Positions 3,274 to 25,034 of a stretch of DNA of 64,000 bases are shown one piece after another. Source of the DNA: Natranaerobius thermophilus JW/NM-WN-LF (lineage in GTDB: Bacteria > Bacillota > Natranaerobiia > Natranaerobiales > Natranaerobiaceae); assembly GCF_000020005.1 (NCBI RefSeq), contig NC_010718.1:1059001-1123000 (forward strand), read 5' to 3'. The notes under the pieces were generated by a model that made no database searches, was not told the origin of the DNA, and saw only the letters and a program-made list of their open reading frames with translations. Both the position numbers and the translations under genes were made by a program. Positions within the stretch are counted from its first letter, which is position 1. Each line of letters starts with the position of its first letter.

Positions 3274-4149
3274 ATGAGCGCTATTTGTTTTGAAAATGTT
3301 TCTAAGAAATTTGGTGACTCAAAAATTATCGACGATTTTAATTTAACAATAGAACGTGGCACAGTATTTGGTTTTATCGGACCCAATGGAGCTGGGAAAA
3401 CAACTACCATAAAAATGCTGACAGGGCTTATTAAACCGACGACAGGATCAATAAAAATACTTAACCAAGATATCTCAAATGGATATCAAATTTTAGATCA
3501 CATTGGTTATGTTTCCGAAGAAAGTAATCTTTATAATTACATGACTTTCCAAGGTATTTTAAACTTTGCGAAAGGTTTTTATACTAATTGGGATCCGAGT
3601 CTAGTCGATAAGTATACGGAGTTTTTTCGGCTTCCTTTAAATCAACCTATTAAGGAATTTTCTAAAGGTATGAAAGTAAAAGTTTCTCTCGTTCTAGCAC
3701 TGGCCCATAACCCCAAAATTTTGATATTAGATGAACCAACAAGTGGGCTAGACCCTATTTTTAGAAGGGAATTTTTAAATGTTCTAGTAGAAGAAATGAC
3801 TCAATCAGAGAAAACTATTTTCTTTTCATCTCACATTATTGATGATGTTGAGAGAATTGCTGATCAGATAGGCATAATTAATGATGGGCGGTTGTTGAAA
3901 GTTAGAGATATGGATGAACTTAAAACCAATGAAAAGAAGATTAGAGTTGTTTTTCAAAGAGATATTGAATCAGAATTTTTTGATTTTCCAGGCATAGCAA
4001 AAGTAGAGAAAAGTGATAATGCCTATATTTTAACAGTCTCAGAGAATTTTGAGGAAATTTATCAAAGATGTAAAAGTAAACCTCACTTTACCCTTGATGT
4101 AATTGAACAGAGTCTCGAAGACATTCTAATTAATACTTCTGGGAGGTAA
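3274..4149 (+). CDS. ABC transporter ATP-binding protein (YtrB-like)
   Basis: The 291-residue ATPase has Walker A GPNGAGKTT (about 36-44), a degenerate signature region EFSKGMKVK, Walker B ILILDEPTSGLDP and the H-loop in FFSSHIIDD. It would energise an ABC-2 type exporter or lantibiotic-stress transporter of the YtrBCDEF kind. It sits in an operon with the GntR regulator upstream and a damaged permease 4 bp downstream, so the local transporter may no longer work unless another permease substitutes. Confidence 0.88.
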   Translation: MSAICFENVSKKFGDSKIIDDFNLTIERGTVFGFIGPNGAGKTTTIKMLTGLIKPTTGSIKILNQDISNGYQILDHIGYVSEESNLYNYMTFQGILNFAKGFYTNWDPSLVDKYTEFFRLPLNQPIKEFSKGMKVKVSLVLALAHNPKILILDEPTSGLDPIFRREFLNVLVEEMTQSEKTIFFSSHIIDDVERIADQIGIINDGRLLKVRDMDELKTNEKKIRVVFQRDIESEFFDFPGIAKVEKSDNAYILTVSENFEEIYQRCKSKPHFTLDVIEQSLEDILINTSGR

Positions 4150-6799: not shown

Positions 6800-8461
6800 A
6801 TGGCTGCCAATGATAATAGAAGAAATAGAAATGAGGATCAAGAAATAGATAGAGATAAAATAGAAGAATTATTGTTCAGTAGAAATACAAAGAAATTTGG
6901 TTTTGATTTAAATCCAGTGGTTTCCTTAGGTGCAGGTATAATAATTATAATTTTTTCTGCTTTTGCTTTGATCAATCTTGAAAGAGCTAATATTTTAGTT
7001 AATTCAGTCAATGAAATCATAGTGACAAACTTTGATTGGATTTTTATTCTCTCGAGCAGTTTTTTTATTTTGATTTGCATATATATAGCTTTTTCCAAAT
7101 TAGGTAAAGTCAAAATAGGTGGATTAAATGCCGAGCGAGAATTTAGTAACTTTGCCTGGTATTCCATGCTAATATCAGCAGGGATGGGTATTGGACTGAT
7201 GTTTTGGGCAGTTGGTGAGCCCTTAACTCATTTTGAAGTTTTACCTCCAGTATTTGATAGCCCTTTCGATAAACATACTGCCATGGCCACTACTTTTTTT
7301 CACTGGGGCTTACACCCTTGGGCAGTTTATTCTTTAATAGCTTTAGCTTTAGCCTTTTTCGCTTATAATAAGCATTTGCCATTATCAATTAGATCAGTCT
7401 TTTATCCTTTTTTTAAAGAAAGAGTGTACGGAACCCTAGGTGATGTTATCGATACTTTAGCGGTGCTTTCAACTCTGTTTGGATTAGCTACTTCCTTGGG
7501 TTTAGGGGCTCAACAAATAAACAGTGGTCTTGATTATTTATTTGATATTGGTTTTAGTGTTAACATCCAAGTAGCTTTAATAATTGGAATCACATTATTA
7601 GCTACCATTTCCGTATTATCGGGTATAGATAAAGGAGTAAAGTTTCTGTCAAAAATGAATATTAGATTGGCTGCAATTTTAATGGGAATTATCTTATTAT
7701 TGGGACCTACTGGTTTTATCTTAAGGCTTTTTTCCAATTCTTTGGGCTTATATTTTAATAATATTATTGAATACTCTTTCTTTATTGCAGTAGAAGAAAC
7801 AGGGTGGCAAGCAAATTGGTCGATCTTTTATTTAGCTTGGTGGATATCCTGGTCTCCCTTTGTTGGAATGTTTATTGCAAGAATTTCAAAAGGTAGGACC
7901 ATCAGGGAATTGATCTTAGGAGTAATGATAGTACCGTCACTGTTATCATTTTTATGGTTATCTGTTTTTGGTGGTAGTGCAATTTTTATTAACGAACAAG
8001 TAGGAGGTTTGTATGAAGTAGTTCAGGATGATTTACCTGTAGCCTTGTATGAGTTGGTTAATTTATTAAATTTACCATTATTAGCCGAATTATTTAGAAT
8101 TTTATTGTTTATATTAATAACTTTCTTAGTGGCAGTATATTTCATAACCTCCTCTGATTCGGGGTCACTAGTAGTTAATAAAATTACATCAAGTGGTAAA
8201 CTTAATACTCCGGCAAATCAACGTGCTTTTTGGGCAATTTTAGAGGGTTTGTTAGCAGCAGTTCTGTTATTGATTGGTGGAGAAAAAGCTTTACTTGCTC
8301 TACAGACAGCAGTAATTAGTACTGGACTTCCATTTGCAGTGGTATTAACCGCCATGGCTTTTGCCTTGATTAAGGGAATTGAAGATACTCGTCGAGAACA
8401 AAAACGGAAACGGGAGCGGAGAAAATTTGAAAAACTTTTAAAAGCTCACGACCAAGAATAA
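6800..8461 (+). CDS. BCCT-family betaine/carnitine/choline transporter
   Basis: The 553-residue protein has about twelve membrane helices between a charged N-terminus and a basic C-terminal tail. Typical BCCT stretches are SAGMGIGLMFWAVGEP (about 127-142), FFHWGLHPWAVY and WWISWSPFVGMFIARISKGRTIRE. It should import glycine betaine or a related quaternary amine, most likely with sodium, as an osmoprotectant. AAAGGGG precedes ATG 6800. Its likely biological partners are the carnitine cluster at 26.5-28.9 kb and the OpuAC-type lipoprotein. Confidence 0.93.
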   Translation: MAANDNRRNRNEDQEIDRDKIEELLFSRNTKKFGFDLNPVVSLGAGIIIIIFSAFALINLERANILVNSVNEIIVTNFDWIFILSSSFFILICIYIAFSKLGKVKIGGLNAEREFSNFAWYSMLISAGMGIGLMFWAVGEPLTHFEVLPPVFDSPFDKHTAMATTFFHWGLHPWAVYSLIALALAFFAYNKHLPLSIRSVFYPFFKERVYGTLGDVIDTLAVLSTLFGLATSLGLGAQQINSGLDYLFDIGFSVNIQVALIIGITLLATISVLSGIDKGVKFLSKMNIRLAAILMGIILLLGPTGFILRLFSNSLGLYFNNIIEYSFFIAVEETGWQANWSIFYLAWWISWSPFVGMFIARISKGRTIRELILGVMIVPSLLSFLWLSVFGGSAIFINEQVGGLYEVVQDDLPVALYELVNLLNLPLLAELFRILLFILITFLVAVYFITSSDSGSLVVNKITSSGKLNTPANQRAFWAILEGLLAAVLLLIGGEKALLALQTAVISTGLPFAVVLTAMAFALIKGIEDTRREQKRKRERRKFEKLLKAHDQE

Positions 8462-8497
8462 TATTGCTATTCAAACGGCTAGTCTAGCAATATAAAT

Positions 8498-8535
8498 GAA
8501 CCTCCCAGAGATTCAATAAACTTTCTGGGAGGTTC
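8498..8535. terminator. Stem-loop between the BCCT transporter and iadA
   Basis: A 12-bp perfect stem GAACCTCCCAGA / TCTGGGAGGTTC lies between the convergent genes. A second palindrome ATATTGCTA / TAGCAATAT spans 8461-8493. The T-run after the main stem is poor, so termination strength is uncertain. Confidence 0.6.
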
Positions 8536-8582
8536 TCACTTCTTCTCTTAGTCCACGTGCTTTTGGAGGACTCAGGACTCTA

Positions 8583-16722: not shown

Positions 16723-16808
16723 TTACTAAATAGTAGAAATTAAAGGAGATTGAACCATAGCAGACGAATATAAAAGCAATTAGGAAGTAGTTGAAGGGGG
16801 AAGAAAAA

Positions 16809-17165
16809 ATGCTTGGTTTAACCATTCTAATAGGTTTTGCTTTTTTAGGCGAATTAATGTCTATCTATTTAAATTTACCGCTCCCCGGTAATGTAATCGG
16901 ACTGATCTTATTTATAGTTTCACTATTTTCGGGGATTATTAAATTAGACTGGGTAGAAACTATTTCTTCAGTGATAGTCAAACACCTAGCACTGTTCTTT
17001 ATACCAGTCGTAGTTGCAATCATCTCATTGTTCCCTCTTTTAAGAGAGAACTTATTGGTGATTATTATAAGTCTTACTGTAAGTACAATTCTTGTTTTAT
17101 TAGCTACTGGTATTACTGTCAAACTTGCCATATCTAGTAAATTAAGCAAAAAAGGAGAGAACTGA
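16809..17165 (+). CDS. lrgA: LrgA/CidA family holin-like protein
   Basis: The 118-residue protein has four hydrophobic segments and the family stretch LPLPGNVIGLILF near residue 25. I start it at ATG 16809 after AAGGGGGAAG; the TTG six codons earlier is less likely. LrgA/CidA proteins form holin-like membrane oligomers that affect autolysis and, in some bacteria, pyruvate movement. It sits 1 bp before lrgB, the usual pair. Confidence 0.88.
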   Translation: MLGLTILIGFAFLGELMSIYLNLPLPGNVIGLILFIVSLFSGIIKLDWVETISSVIVKHLALFFIPVVVAIISLFPLLRENLLVIIISLTVSTILVLLATGITVKLAISSKLSKKGEN

Positions 17166-17166
17166 T

Positions 17167-17847
17167 ATGGAATTTCTAAATCAGCCAATTTTTGGTGTAG
17201 GGATGACAATCATCCCGTATATGATTTTTGTGTTATTGAAACAAAGAGTTCCAATGGTAAATCCTTTTATTTTTACTACTACATTGATTATATTACTTTT
17301 ATTAACCTTGGATATACCATATGATGCTTACGAAGAAGGTGGGCGCATCATTGAGTTTATGCTAGCTCCCGCTACTATTGCCCTGGGTGTACCAATCTAC
17401 AAAGAAGCTCAAAGAATTAAGGATAATTTAGTTCCTATTTTGTTAGGAAATACTGTAGGAAGTTTAGTGGGGCTTGTTAGTGCTGGGTTATTGGTCTTTA
17501 TTTTAAGTGGAAATCAGGGATTGATGTTTTCTATGATGCCTAAATCGGCTACTACCCCAATATCAGTAGAAATAGTTGCTAATTTGGGTGGGATGCCATC
17601 TTTAGGAGCTACATTTACTGTACTGACAGGTGTTTTTGGAAGCTTATTTGGTCCTGAGCTACTGAAAAAATGTGGGATCAGTGAAAATGAGTCTATTGGG
17701 GCTGCTATGGGGACATCTTCCCATGGAATTGGAACGGCTAGAGTCGTGGCACAATCAGAAATTCAAGGGAGTATTAGTGCGTTTTCAATGGGTATGACAG
17801 GGATTATTACATCTATAATGGCCATCCCTTTATATTTGGTCTTCTAA
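17167..17847 (+). CDS. lrgB: LrgB/CidB family membrane protein
   Basis: The 226-residue protein has multiple membrane helices and family stretches LLKQRVPMVNPF, PATIALGVPIYK, SMMPKSATTPISVEI and GTSSHGIGTARVV. It is the standard partner of LrgA. AAAGGAGA precedes ATG 17167, and the pair ends at a clear terminator at 17852. Confidence 0.9.
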   Translation: MEFLNQPIFGVGMTIIPYMIFVLLKQRVPMVNPFIFTTTLIILLLLTLDIPYDAYEEGGRIIEFMLAPATIALGVPIYKEAQRIKDNLVPILLGNTVGSLVGLVSAGLLVFILSGNQGLMFSMMPKSATTPISVEIVANLGGMPSLGATFTVLTGVFGSLFGPELLKKCGISENESIGAAMGTSSHGIGTARVVAQSEIQGSISAFSMGMTGIITSIMAIPLYLVF

Positions 17848-19365: not shown

Positions 19366-19402
19366 AAAGTTGCAGTTTTTCATGAGCTGCAACTTTTCTT
19401 AT
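19366..19402 (+). terminator. Intrinsic terminator after the stalk-domain gene
   Basis: AAAGTTGCAG / CTGCAACTTT stem (10 bp) followed by TCTT. Confidence 0.7.
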
Positions 19403-19498
19403 TGTAATAAGCTCACAATTAAACATCAGCTTCTGTAAACGACTCTTTACGAAATTTTAGAATTATTGTAAAATTCAGGCAAAACTGGAGGGATGAGG

Positions 19499-20413
19499 GT
19501 GTGTGAAATCATTAATGTGAAAGGCTTAACTACAGAGGATAGGAGTGGCCAATCATTAAATGATTTAAACTTTACTGTGAACCGAGGAGAAATTTTTGCT
19601 ATCTTAGGTCATTATGGAGCCGGAAAAACAACTTTGTTAGACTGTATGACTAGAATAAATACTCCGAGTCAAGGTTCTATAATTTATAATATTAATAGTA
19701 ACAAGGAAGATATCTATAAACATATAGGTGTGCAGATGCAAGCACAATATTTTGAACATCCATGGTTAACGGTAAAAGAAGTTTGTGAAATGTACAAAGA
19801 AATGTTCCAAAGTGATGTGGAGATAACGCAATTATTAGAAGAATTCAATTTACAGAAGCAAAGTAATACTTTTGTTGAGTATCTCTCAAATGATAATCAA
19901 AGAAAGCTCAATATTTTATTAACCCTTATTAAAGATCCAGAAATTATTTTTTTAGACGAACCGACAACAAATTTGAATCCAGTGCCAAGAAAAGAAGTTT
20001 TGGAAAACATAAAAAAGATACGGACTAATAGAAAAAAGACCATTGTTATGTGCACATACTTGATTAATGAAGTAGCTTATTTGGCCGATAGAACACTGGT
20101 TTTACACAAAGGAGAACAAGTGTGTTTAGATGAAGTATCTTCGATTTTAGAAGACTACTCACTAAAATGGCAGATCATTGAATTTCAGATTAAAGACCAA
20201 AAAGCGAGTTCACAGTTGATGAAATATCAGGTGACTCAATTGAGTGGTGATCGCTATAAATTGTTAACTTCCGACGCCCATAAGATGTTAACACAACTAA
20301 AGCAAGATGTAGATATAGTAGATGAAAAGATTAAAGATCCCACTTTAGAAGATATATTTAGTAAATTTGCCGGGTACAAAATAGATAGAGAGGGGAGGAT
20401 TGTTAATGAATAA
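19499..20413 (+). CDS. Degenerate ABC transporter ATP-binding protein
   Basis: The 304-residue ATPase has Walker A GHYGAGKTT and Walker B IIFLDEPTTNLNP, but the signature loop reads YLSNDNQRKLN in place of LSGGQ-like, and the usual H-loop His is replaced in VMCTYLINEVA. It may therefore bind ATP but hydrolyse it poorly or asymmetrically. I prefer GTG 19499 (7 bases after GGAGG) over ATG 19493, which is too close. It overlaps the permease/beta-lactamase fusion by 8 bp. Confidence 0.8.
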   Translation: MCEIINVKGLTTEDRSGQSLNDLNFTVNRGEIFAILGHYGAGKTTLLDCMTRINTPSQGSIIYNINSNKEDIYKHIGVQMQAQYFEHPWLTVKEVCEMYKEMFQSDVEITQLLEEFNLQKQSNTFVEYLSNDNQRKLNILLTLIKDPEIIFLDEPTTNLNPVPRKEVLENIKKIRTNRKKTIVMCTYLINEVAYLADRTLVLHKGEQVCLDEVSSILEDYSLKWQIIEFQIKDQKASSQLMKYQVTQLSGDRYKLLTSDAHKMLTQLKQDVDIVDEKIKDPTLEDIFSKFAGYKIDREGRIVNE

Positions 20414-22202
20414 CAAATTTGTACCCCTGCTTTCATACCAATTAAGATCTGATTTTAGAGATTATAGAAACTCAATTTTTATCATAGTGATCCCACTATT
20501 GCTAGTAACTTATTTAGTAATTACTGCCGAGGAAATGATGCAAGATGTCACTTCAATGCAATATATTGTTTTTGTAGTGGTTACTTCCATAATAATTAAC
20601 TTTGGAGGCAATCTTGCAAGATATCAAGAGTTTAATTCTTTTGCAAAGTATAAATTATTAGGGGTTCAACCATTCACTTTAGGTTTTAGTTTGTTTCTTA
20701 ATGCATTAATTTTTCAATTATTGAGTATTGCAATCATGATGGTTTATGTTGTAGCTATCTGGGGAGTGGAAATATCTTATGGAAGTATTCATAATATACT
20801 GATAACATTGGTATTAATCAACTTATTTCAAGTGGCCATTGCTTTTTTCATGACTAATATAGTTAATAATCAAAGAAATTATAATCGACTGGCTAAGATT
20901 ATTTCTTGTTACCAAATAATTTTACTAATATTCTACGTAAATTTCCAAATAGGGCCAGTTAGTACCATGATTCTGGAGATAATCAACCCTGTAGTGAACA
21001 GTTACATGACAATATCGGTAACATGGGTAGAAGGGCTAAGTATTTTTGAAGTTCTCAGGGAAATTGTTATTATTTTAGCCCTAACTGCCATATTGTTGGG
21101 ATTAAGTTCTAAATATTTTAAAGGTAAAGTAGGATTAAGAGTGCTAGTTCTAATTTTAAGTTTAGCAATAATTACCCCAGGTGTATCGGGCTATTTTCAG
21201 GAACCTGCTATAGCTACTAAATGGGAAGCTTCTTCACCAGAAGCAGAAGGATTTGATCCTCAGAAATTAGAAGAATTTATACAAAGCCTGGATCATTGGG
21301 GTAATGTTGACAGTCTGGTAATTATAAGAGAAGGGCAAGTAGTCGAAGAATACTACAGATATCCTCGCCTATTAGATAGTTATCCAATGTATTCTGTGAC
21401 AAAACCAATTACAGGATTTTTAGTAGGAATTGCTATTGATGAAGGTTATATCGATAGTGTTGACGAGAAAATAGGGACATACTTTCCAGAGCTTGAAGAA
21501 AAAAATCCTGAGATGAGAGAGATAACAATCGAAAATTTATTGCAAATGACAAGTGGAGTAGAATGGAACGAGGAAAATGTACGCTATTATGTTAAGAATA
21601 AAGAAGGAGAATTTAGAAATGATTGGACTCGTGCAGAAGTTTCAGGGGATCCCCTGGGTTATTATTTTTCAAAATCTATGGATGAAAGCCCTGGAGAAGC
21701 ATACTATTACAACTCCGCCGATAGTCATGTATTGTCACATATAATCGAAAAGGCTACAGGTATGAAGCCTTATGAGTTCGCTGATAAGTATCTGTTTGAA
21801 CCACTTGATATTAATATGTCATATCTCAGCTGGATAGCTGATGACTATGGAGTTAACTTAGGTGGCAGTGGAATTAAAATGCACACAAAGGATATGGCCA
21901 AAATTGGAGATCTAGCTTTAAATGATGGATCCTATAATGGAAAAGATGTGGTACCAGAAGAATGGATTGAAAGAACATTTCAAGATGGATCCGAGGTTAG
22001 TGATGATGTTAAATATGGCTATCACTGGTATATATACGAAGATTATCCGGATATCGAGTATAAATTTTATGGTCATACCGGATCGTTTGGCCAAGGGCTT
22101 TTTGTAGTGCCAGAACTAGACTTAGTTTTAGCATACAATTCGGATTCTAATCTCCGTAGACCCGTGATTACTGAACTTTTAGAAACAGTTGAAAAAGAAT
22201 GA
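20406..22202 (+). CDS. Fusion of ABC-2 type permease with class C beta-lactamase-like serine hydrolase
   Basis: The 598-residue protein begins at ATG 20406 (GAGGGGAGG upstream). Residues 1-265 hold about six hydrophobic helices in ABC-2 permease order. Residues about 275-598 are a beta-lactamase/PBP-like domain with SVTK (Ser330), a YYN/YNS second motif (about 434-437) and HTG near the end, so all three active-site elements are present. The last helix places the hydrolase outside. It could trim peptidoglycan peptides or an exported ester/peptide handled by the linked ATPase. Confidence 0.85.
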   Translation: MNNKFVPLLSYQLRSDFRDYRNSIFIIVIPLLLVTYLVITAEEMMQDVTSMQYIVFVVVTSIIINFGGNLARYQEFNSFAKYKLLGVQPFTLGFSLFLNALIFQLLSIAIMMVYVVAIWGVEISYGSIHNILITLVLINLFQVAIAFFMTNIVNNQRNYNRLAKIISCYQIILLIFYVNFQIGPVSTMILEIINPVVNSYMTISVTWVEGLSIFEVLREIVIILALTAILLGLSSKYFKGKVGLRVLVLILSLAIITPGVSGYFQEPAIATKWEASSPEAEGFDPQKLEEFIQSLDHWGNVDSLVIIREGQVVEEYYRYPRLLDSYPMYSVTKPITGFLVGIAIDEGYIDSVDEKIGTYFPELEEKNPEMREITIENLLQMTSGVEWNEENVRYYVKNKEGEFRNDWTRAEVSGDPLGYYFSKSMDESPGEAYYYNSADSHVLSHIIEKATGMKPYEFADKYLFEPLDINMSYLSWIADDYGVNLGGSGIKMHTKDMAKIGDLALNDGSYNGKDVVPEEWIERTFQDGSEVSDDVKYGYHWYIYEDYPDIEYKFYGHTGSFGQGLFVVPELDLVLAYNSDSNLRRPVITELLETVEKE

Positions 22203-22291
22203 TATGAAAATGATGTGATCCGAATAAATTTGGTTTAATTTAAATTGTATAAACTGTATTAAAAAATTGAAATTGTTGAAACAGTTAAAGC

Positions 22292-22347
22292 AAAAAGGGA
22301 CTGTCCCCAAACTAAATGATAATTTTGGGTTACAGTCCCTTTTTTCT
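22292..22347. terminator. Bidirectional terminator between the fusion gene and pmbA
   Basis: A 13-bp perfect stem AAAAAGGGACTGT / ACAGTCCCTTTTT serves the convergent genes on both sides. Confidence 0.85.
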
Positions 22348-22363
22348 TATATTAATAATTAAA

Positions 22364-23680
22364 TTACTCTCCTACAATACTAGCTTCACTGAACAATACC
22401 ATGGGAGAATAGCCCATGTAATAGAATATACTTCTCATGGCTTCATATTCTGTGCCGACAGCTTCTACTTTTTGAAAGAGATCATAAATATTACCAGCAA
22501 TCATGCTACCTTTTACTTCTCCCACTAATTCACCGTTTTCAATCAGATAACCTGAGGAAATGTTCATAGAAAAGTCACCTTGATTTATATTACCAGTATG
22601 AGCTCCCATTACGCCTGTTATTAACAGGCCTCTATCTACATTCTTGATAAGCTCTGCATCTGATTTTGACTTACCTTCAACTACCAGGTTTGAGTCGAAA
22701 ACTGAAGGTTTATCTTCAATTTCTTTAGAGAATAAGGTCCTTTTAAATGCATTACCTGTTGGCTTTAAGTCTAATTCTTTAGTTTGACTGAGACCTAGTA
22801 AGTAATTCTTCAGGACTCCCTTATCATATAAGATGGTATTTTGTGCTGGGGTCCCTTCATCGTCAAAGGGACAAGAATTACATCCGTAGGGCATTTTACC
22901 GTCATCTCTAATCGTGATGTTTTCTGAAAACAGCTGTTCACCTAGTTTGTCTTTTACTGGAGAAATCCCTTTATTTATATTTTCACCATTAACACCAGCT
23001 AAGACTCTCAACATTAAAGCACCCATGGTTTTGCCACTGAATATCACTGGCATTTGTTCGTTTTCTAATGAAACAGGGTGATCACCTAAACGGTGTCGCT
23101 TGATTAGATTCTGAATACTTTCATTGCTAACTTTAGGTAGCTTTGCACTGGAATACTCTTTGTTTGCGCCTGTAAAGCCTTTATCTGTTAGTGTGTTTAA
23201 ACCTAATGAAAAATTAGTGTAATCATAGCTGTTATTGAAACCAGTACTGTTTAGTAAATGAATTTTCTTAAATGATTTTTGGAGCTTAACATCAAACTTA
23301 ATATCTGGACCGGCCTCTTTTAATCGATTGTAATAATCAAAAGCAAGTTGGGATAATTCTTTACTGCTCATATTTTTAACTTCTTCAGAATATGTAGGGA
23401 CTTCATGATAGTTTTCATTAGGAAAGGATACCGCCTCGGATTTTTGGTTTTCTAAAGCTATAACTGCTCGGTCGATGATACTATCATCCTCTAAAGATGT
23501 GGAAACTGCAGCTCCCATATTTCCATCTCTGATAATCCTCAAAGCTACTTCTGTTTTTTTCTCTGAATTTATTCCTTTCATTTCACCCATTTTAACTGAA
23601 GCAGAAGTATTAAAAACTTCTCTCATGTAAACTTCAGCTTCATCGGCAACTTTTAAGGCTTTATTTAACAAATTTTCCAT
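22364..23680 (-). CDS. pmbA: TldE/PmbA family protein
   Basis: The 438-residue protein is the catalytically inactive partner type of the TldD/TldE metalloprotease: it lacks HExxxH but has the GVNGENINKGISPVKDKLGE and YGCNSCPFDDEGTPAQ stretches typical of the family. It should form a heterodimer with TldD that degrades unfolded or modified peptides. It begins 1 bp after the tldD stop codon, so the two are translationally coupled. Confidence 0.92.
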   Translation of the reverse strand: MENLLNKALKVADEAEVYMREVFNTSASVKMGEMKGINSEKKTEVALRIIRDGNMGAAVSTSLEDDSIIDRAVIALENQKSEAVSFPNENYHEVPTYSEEVKNMSSKELSQLAFDYYNRLKEAGPDIKFDVKLQKSFKKIHLLNSTGFNNSYDYTNFSLGLNTLTDKGFTGANKEYSSAKLPKVSNESIQNLIKRHRLGDHPVSLENEQMPVIFSGKTMGALMLRVLAGVNGENINKGISPVKDKLGEQLFSENITIRDDGKMPYGCNSCPFDDEGTPAQNTILYDKGVLKNYLLGLSQTKELDLKPTGNAFKRTLFSKEIEDKPSVFDSNLVVEGKSKSDAELIKNVDRGLLITGVMGAHTGNINQGDFSMNISSGYLIENGELVGEVKGSMIAGNIYDLFQKVEAVGTEYEAMRSIFYYMGYSPMVLFSEASIVGE

Positions 23681-23681
23681 G

Positions 23682-25034
23682 TTATTTTCCCCCTATGCCC
23701 ATATTTTTAACTTTGATTGGGGCTGAACCCTTTCCGGATTGGATTAAAATTTGACCGGCTTTTCCGCAACCACCGGATTTAGAAAACTCAACTTTGTTAC
23801 CAATCATTTCTATATTTTTCAAAGTGGTAAATAAATGGCCAGTTAGAGCAATATCTCTAACTAGTCCTTTGATCTCTCCATTTTCTATTTTATAACCACC
23901 CTGGACTGCGAAGGTAAAAGTTTCGCCACTGGTTTGACCACCGGCAGAACCAAAAAGATATAGGCCATTATCAATTGATTTGACCATTTCATCAAAAGAG
24001 TGTTTATCTTTATCTATATAAATATTACCCATACGGACAATTGGAGTAAAACCAAAGTTTTTTGCCCTGGCATGGCCGGTAAGTTCTTCTTCCATTAGAT
24101 TTGCACTTTCTAAAGAATGAAGCCGCCCGCTTAACTTGCCATTTTTGATTAAGTAAGTCGGTTTGGCCTTGATCCCTTCGTGATCGTAAATATAGCTACC
24201 CGGATGTCCCTTTTTGGTTGGATCGTCAATAACATTGAACTCTTCTACTGCAAATTCAGAACCTAAAGTCATAGTTTCAGCTAGAGTTTTGTTGCCAATA
24301 AGATTATCCGCTTCACTTAAATGCCCAAAGGCTTCATGTATGAAAAGACCTCCCACATCACTGTCCAAGATAACATCATAATTACCTCCGGAAATTGGCT
24401 CGGCATCTAAGAGATCCACAGTCTGCTGGGCTTTGGCAGAAACAATATCTTCTTGCTCAAGGAGCCCTGAGTAGTCGTCACTACCGCCCAAGGAAAGTCG
24501 TGTAGTTTGAGTTAAGTTATCCTTTTTCGAAGTAATTTTAAATGAAATCCCACAGATCAGTTCTTCCTGACGGACTTCCGTTCCGCGATTATTCAAAATT
24601 AAAGTATCGGTAAACTGTTCAAAGTAGTTAGAATCAAGATCCACAATATTATCTTTTTCCATTATAATGTTTATGTATTTTTCTAATAAGGCTTTTTTGT
24701 CTTCAATAGAGACTTGACGGGGATCTATCTTGGGATTGATTTTTACATGGTCTTTGTTCACCTCAACATTCTTTAGTTCCGAGTTACCACTAATCAAATC
24801 ACTAGCAGTTTTGGCTTCTTTGACGGCAAAATTGATATCCTTTGGATCTGTAAAAGAAAATGTACCAAAACCACCGCCGGATAATACCCGGACATTCCCT
24901 CCACTTTTCCTAATTTCTGAAACCTCATCAATCTCTTTGTTGGTTCCTTTGATAGAAGTTAAGGAAAAATCTTGATACCTGAGATCACAAAAGTCTTCTT
25001 GTAAAAGAGAATCCTTTAAAAATTTTAAATCCAT
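23682..25034 (-). CDS. tldD: Metalloprotease TldD
   Basis: The 450-residue protein has the zinc site GGLFIHEAFGHLSEAD (HExxxH at about residue 233) and the conserved C-terminal GGCGKAGQ segment. AGGAGGAAGAGT precedes ATG 25034. Together with PmbA it forms a proteolytic chamber acting on peptides, including some RiPP precursors and CcdA-like antitoxins in other bacteria. Nothing nearby looks like a RiPP precursor. Confidence 0.93.
   Translation of the reverse strand: MDLKFLKDSLLQEDFCDLRYQDFSLTSIKGTNKEIDEVSEIRKSGGNVRVLSGGGFGTFSFTDPKDINFAVKEAKTASDLISGNSELKNVEVNKDHVKINPKIDPRQVSIEDKKALLEKYINIIMEKDNIVDLDSNYFEQFTDTLILNNRGTEVRQEELICGISFKITSKKDNLTQTTRLSLGGSDDYSGLLEQEDIVSAKAQQTVDLLDAEPISGGNYDVILDSDVGGLFIHEAFGHLSEADNLIGNKTLAETMTLGSEFAVEEFNVIDDPTKKGHPGSYIYDHEGIKAKPTYLIKNGKLSGRLHSLESANLMEEELTGHARAKNFGFTPIVRMGNIYIDKDKHSFDEMVKSIDNGLYLFGSAGGQTSGETFTFAVQGGYKIENGEIKGLVRDIALTGHLFTTLKNIEMIGNKVEFSKSGGCGKAGQILIQSGKGSAPIKVKNMGIGGK

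Follow-up and report, generated by a model that had tools for sequence, protein, structure and literature searches.

Two genes of Natranaerobius thermophilus JW/NM-WN-LF (3,191,453 bp, 3 contigs), one for an ABC ATPase and one for a permease joined to a hydrolase, raise the question of whether such a pair still transports, only anchors an enzyme or has become something else. They lie in a 64,000-nucleotide stretch (contig NC_010718.1, positions 1,059,001 to 1,123,000), which we call the window and whose own numbering is used here. The pair was picked out by a model that had read the letters and open reading frames, and we followed up this sequence-only reading with homology searches, structure prediction and comparison with related loci.

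A permease and a serine hydrolase in one open frame

The fusion gene (20406-22202, + strand) encodes a protein of 598 aa that begins as an ABC-2 (type V) permease with six transmembrane (TM) helices and continues through a seventh TM segment into a serine hydrolase of PF00144, an architecture that is unusual. Its frame was listed from TTG 20400; the real start is likely ATG 20406, behind GGGGAGGA, where the ribosome-binding site (RBS) duplex (−12.7 kcal/mol) lies outside the 1% quantile of the background for this gene. The permease half occupies 20406-21128 (residues 1-241), the junction with the seventh TM segment 21129-21188 (residues 242-261) and the hydrolase domain 21216-22199 (residues 271-598), all on the + strand. 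The seven hydrophobic segments fall at residues 23-41, 53-71, 100-118, 131-149, 171-189, 213-231 and 242-260. The fused frame is more than chance, because its 598 codons are open while the other two frames are interrupted by 71 and 59 stops, and because each half has homologues. Permease and hydrolase are thus one protein, as had been claimed from the sequence, and the ATPase frame overlaps it by 8 bp (20406-20413). The structure model of the whole fusion has a mean pLDDT of 84.1, with most of the hydrolase above 90; residues 182-217 and 255-265 fall below 50, so that TM7 and the linker are a low-confidence prediction.

The permease half matches PF01061 weakly (E 0.088), while its unfused homologues in Alkaliphilus serpentinus (locus L049) and genome G233 (L047) pass the cut-off for that model and the homologue in the same genome (L044) has no Pfam match. 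Modelled alone (mean pLDDT 77.5), it yielded type V TM domains in 50 of the 50 VIA-align matches listed (top Z 23.7, rmsd 2.4 over 237 residues), from the families ABCH, ABCA, ABCG, NosDFY, Wzm, KpsM and TarGH, all of which we take to be type V; no FtsX-like type VII fold was among the structural matches listed. The Foldseek matches fell in the same families, at modest E-values of which the best was 1.5e-3 (7o0y, NosDFY). The six-TM ABC-2 fold and an ABC ATPase encoded alongside are both present. This half is the most diverged part of the pair (31-33% identity), and the stretch KYKLLG between its second and third hydrophobic segments, common to all four permeases aligned, is by position presumably the ATPase-docking loop.

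The hydrolase half matches PF00144 with E 4e-29 over fusion residues of about 304-581. All three motifs read from the sequence are there (SVTK at 330-333, YYN at 434-436 and HTG at 557-559), and none of the 19 aligned hydrolases departs from the Ser and Lys of SxxK or the Tyr of YxN; HTG, on the other hand, is the fusion's own version of a position that reads ANG, ASG, AQG and the like in relatives. The fold is beta-lactamase-like and carries both SxxK and YxN, as expected of a PF00144 serine hydrolase. The best Foldseek match was Lsa45 (1.5e-18), followed by 6-aminohexanoate-dimer hydrolases, PIB-1 and EstG, and a sequence search agreed on Lsa45 (E 4e-25). The earlier term 'beta-lactamase' thus describes the fold family and not the enzyme, since the scores of lactamase models fall well short of their cut-offs. 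A class C beta-lactamase was ruled out (the best-scoring lactamase model gave 16.6 bits where 870 is required; HTG, not KTG), and a role as a beta-lactam resistance gene was rejected, the nearest solved relatives being of esterase/amidase type.

The partner ATPase has kept some motifs and lost others

The ATPase frame runs from ATG 19493 to 20413, and its real start is likely GTG 19499, 7 nt 3' of GGAGG, which gives a protein of 304 aa (19499-20413, + strand). It matches PF00005 well (E 9e-26; 91.5 bits against a cut-off of 25). Motif retention was scored on the residues that are invariant in three intact ATPases, namely the paralogue in the same genome and those of A. serpentinus and G233, to which the fusion-linked ATPase is 47%, 45% and 44% identical, respectively, compared with 66-69% among the three themselves. 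Walker A (7/8 invariant residues), the Q-loop (7/7), Walker B with its catalytic Glu (4/4) and the ADR motif (5/5) are retained. By contrast, the signature (2/4) reads LSNDN against LSGG in the intact relatives, with loss of the glycines, the D-loop (3/6) reads NLN against GLD, with loss of the Asp, and in the H-loop (1/7) a Tyr replaces the His. The sequence-only reading was therefore right about the signature and the H-loop His, and the D-loop is a further loss. Pooled, the three damaged motifs retain 6/17 invariant residues against 99/155 elsewhere (Fisher p 0.034), a weak result given that the motifs were chosen after the loss was known. The end branch of this ATPase (0.65) is two to three times longer than those of the intact ones (0.21-0.28), in a small tree with unresolved forks. 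The intact signature, D-loop and H-loop that mark ATP-driven transport are absent here, and we infer from the damaged motifs that hydrolysis has probably been lost.

Surroundings of the pair

A terminator-like hairpin with a 13-pair stem and a T-rich tail (19366-19396, + strand) stands 3' of the upstream gene, and a strong hairpin (22289-22348; MFE −31.9, z −4.3, 0/200 shuffles as stable) lies between the fusion gene and the convergent tldE. The latter is built on GGGACTGTCCCC and is a probable bidirectional terminator; similar GGGACTGTCCCC hairpin elements may be repeated elsewhere in the genome. Terminator-like sites in the region number six, against a shuffle mean of 1.1. With hairpins before and after it, the ATPase-fusion pair is probably a separate transcription unit. 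Its neighbours are a Cu_amine_oxidN1 protein and tldE/tldD, and among the neighbouring genes scanned there were no biosynthetic genes and no adjoining GHKL kinase or LytTR regulator. The pair therefore lacks the adjacent kinase and regulator that define a LytTR-regulated ABC operon, frames which are present in L044, L047 and L049.

In L049, a crude direct-repeat scan showed two copies of GGGATTGAAA at 21 bp ahead of the ATPase, within 3945-4099, and a similar pair was seen by eye in L047 (10565-10711); both are candidate LytTR operators. A direct repeat of this type was absent from the window's leader (0 against 0.14 in shuffles), a difference too weak to conclude loss.

Other features of the neighbourhood were also seen. 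The convergent tldE/tldD pair (22364-25034, − strand) is one of three in the genome, and its tldD is 57% identical to the A. serpentinus orthologue, against 37% to the next copy in its own genome. In A. serpentinus, the tldE/tldD orthologue (L049 about 1-2114) adjoins the intact kinase-regulator-ABC operon, and TldD/E may have an old connection with this ABC family. Upstream of the ATPase-fusion pair in the window is an lrgA/lrgB-like holin-type pair (16791-17847).

Origin of the fusion and orientation of the enzyme

Unfused relatives of both halves are encoded in the same genome. L044 contains a GHKL-type kinase, a LytTR-type regulator, an intact ATPase and a permease in a row (the kinase and regulator domain names were scanned on the homologous L049 proteins and carried over), and L045 contains a free lipoprotein-like hydrolase (7395-8567) that is 44-46% identical to the fused one and its sister in the tree, with support of 96/94. 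In the permease alignment, the fusion's permease half stops where the C-termini of its homologues stop, and the sequence that follows aligns with the signal peptides of free hydrolases. Loss of the stop codon between two adjacent genes would yield such a fusion. Since the join is at the usual C-terminus of the permease and the usual signal peptide of the hydrolase, an outward-facing enzyme is expected: in type V permeases TM6 ends in the cytoplasm, so TM7 is predicted to carry the hydrolase outside.

Distribution of the fusion in relatives

We searched for the same fusion in other genomes, as the sequence-only reading had proposed, and found no second example. The whole fusion, sought in 61 genomes and in five genomes from the family of G233, occurred only in the window. 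The permease half, searched in 398 genomes of the phylum, gave matches in eight genomes at nine places, of which the window's frame is the only one fused to a hydrolase; a 504-aa frame in L034 has no hydrolase match. The hydrolase half matched in 85 genomes of a 398-genome draw of the phylum. Among the hydrolase frames fetched, from loci for part of these matches, only the window's own frames place two or more hydrophobic segments ahead of the hydrolase, and L027 shows the reverse order, with one such segment before it and three after. Two scans of genome contigs, which need short conserved patterns and miss distant kin, yielded 37 stretches with no relative and, with the permease alignment, 246 stretches with one relative, unfused. 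Plasmid records matched in 322 of 72,556 cases, none over 80% of the query, and the 15 matches listed were all to the hydrolase side only. Word searches of the literature found no publication on such a permease-hydrolase fusion, going by the search listings.

In L043, L044, L045, L047 and L049, the permease and hydrolase genes are separate and do not adjoin each other, which leaves no conserved linkage as an argument that they work together. It had been argued beforehand that two separate genes in all relatives would point to an accidental fusion. They are indeed separate in every relative found and inspected, and an accidental origin is possible: the fusion is a singleton, with no orthologue to show selection on it. 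The retained ATP-binding motifs and fitting topology nevertheless speak against simple junk.

A further observation concerns genome G056, where three similar tandem secreted serine hydrolases and a CAAX-type protease lie beside YcaO, nitroreductase-like, ThiF-like and ABC exporter genes (L043 7871-17881). A YcaO peptide link was considered on account of this triplet and rejected, as a YcaO match is absent from the window's genome.

A possible switch, and the alternatives

From the computed features (a fused frame that is open, the homologies, the predicted fold, the state of the motifs and the kinship of the halves) we infer a scheme whose topology, dimer, loss of hydrolysis and mode of joining are to be read conditionally. 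An ABC-2 exporter copy that had diverged, consisting of ATPase and six-TM permease, would have fused with the gene of a secreted serine hydrolase, the join falling at the permease stop codon or close to it and the hydrolase signal peptide becoming the seventh TM helix. A permease dimer with two degenerate ATPases would then carry a pair of hydrolase domains on the outside of the membrane. Instead of pumping, the cassette may bind ATP and act as a switch, static or slow, since the nucleotide-binding motifs are kept while the residues for dimer closure and hydrolysis are lost, and would position, perhaps gate, an envelope-facing esterase/amidase. We tentatively favour this reading, in which a former exporter has become a platform that binds ATP, hydrolyses it poorly and holds or gates an enzyme on the outside, although we would not call it probable.

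Less likely in our view, but still to be taken seriously, is that the ABC part is vestigial, a decaying exporter copy whose permease is a mere membrane anchor in place of a lost lipoprotein anchor. The lipobox-like Cys of the closest free hydrolases is indeed missing from the fusion, the ATPase and permease are fast-evolving and the kinase and regulator genes are absent beside this copy. Such decay sits poorly with two frames still open despite roughly 53-69% protein divergence, with the almost perfect retention of Walker A/B and the Q-loop, and with an ATPase/permease gene overlap that persists as in translational coupling.

A serious rival too, though unlikely in our view, is that the pair is still an exporter, slow or energized by the intact paralogous ATPase, with the hydrolase trimming or deacylating the emerging molecule. 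The type V fold is typical of exporters, the same genome encodes the 47% identical ATPase needed, and the nearest free hydrolases from outside the genome, those of G056, adjoin YcaO, nitroreductase-like and ABC genes in what looks like a peptide-product setting. However, a homodimer would be without signature, D-loop and H-loop at every site, a heterodimer with the paralogue would still be damaged on one side of each site, and this genome has neither a YcaO match nor biosynthetic genes among the neighbours scanned.

More doubtful again is that two adjacent genes look like one through an error of sequencing or assembly, or through a mutation particular to this strain. This is conceivable because stops in the other frames (21119, 21125 and 21130) lie by the junction, so that one wrong base there or one misread stop would suffice; there is one record only, and a GTG at 21141 could start the second gene. 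Yet the RBS of that GTG is average (−4.7 kcal/mol, against −4.3 for the 25% quantile of the background), the resulting signal peptide would have no positive N-terminus and an indel would have to fall in a short stretch. An internal start at the same GTG, yielding free hydrolase from an intact fusion gene, is possible, but the RBS is just as ordinary for it.

If the switch is real and functional, it would offer a compact natural test of whether the ABC fold can, by binding ATP and without transporting anything, switch an enzyme on the outside, because output and permease are one chain and the unfused relatives of both halves in the same genome serve as controls. If the permease is only an anchor, the locus would be a clean example of a signal peptide turned into a TM helix by gene fusion.

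Comparison with known systems

Among the closest systems are the GHKL kinase-LytTR-ATPase-permease operons of the same genome, A. serpentinus and G233, which resemble the window in ATPase and permease family, gene order and ATPase-permease gene overlap. They differ in that their ATPase motifs are intact, the permease ends after TM6, a kinase and regulator are present and there is no hydrolase. The free secreted PF00144 hydrolases (that of L045 and the G056 triplet) are the closest sequences to the fused enzyme and have the same catalytic residues, but they carry their own signal peptide and lipobox-like Cys and no permease. The solved structures of Lsa45, NylB, PIB-1 and EstG have the hydrolase fold in common with the fusion, and in the entries listed they all lack a fused transporter. 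NosDFY, which acts on an extracytoplasmic partner, has the type V permease fold in common with it; its ATPase NosF is active, and the partner on the outside is a protein of its own.

In its way of working, the proposed switch resembles FtsEX with a peptidoglycan hydrolase, in that an ABC pair may set the activity of an outside hydrolase. FtsEX is described as an ABC pair able to control such a hydrolase (PMC12505981, PMC11627006, PMC6355983), through an outside conformational change driven by ATP binding (PMC12505981), with FtsX as a type VII protein that recruits the hydrolase non-covalently and FtsE as an active ATPase (PMC11627006). The fusion differs in its type V matches, its covalently attached enzyme and its damaged ATPase, so we liken it to FtsEX and do not place it as a member. 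By this analogy a type V exporter might have become an ATP-binding, non-hydrolysing transmembrane switch with the attached extracellular hydrolase as its output, a single-chain type V analogue of FtsEX-hydrolase control, which we regard as a long shot worth stating.
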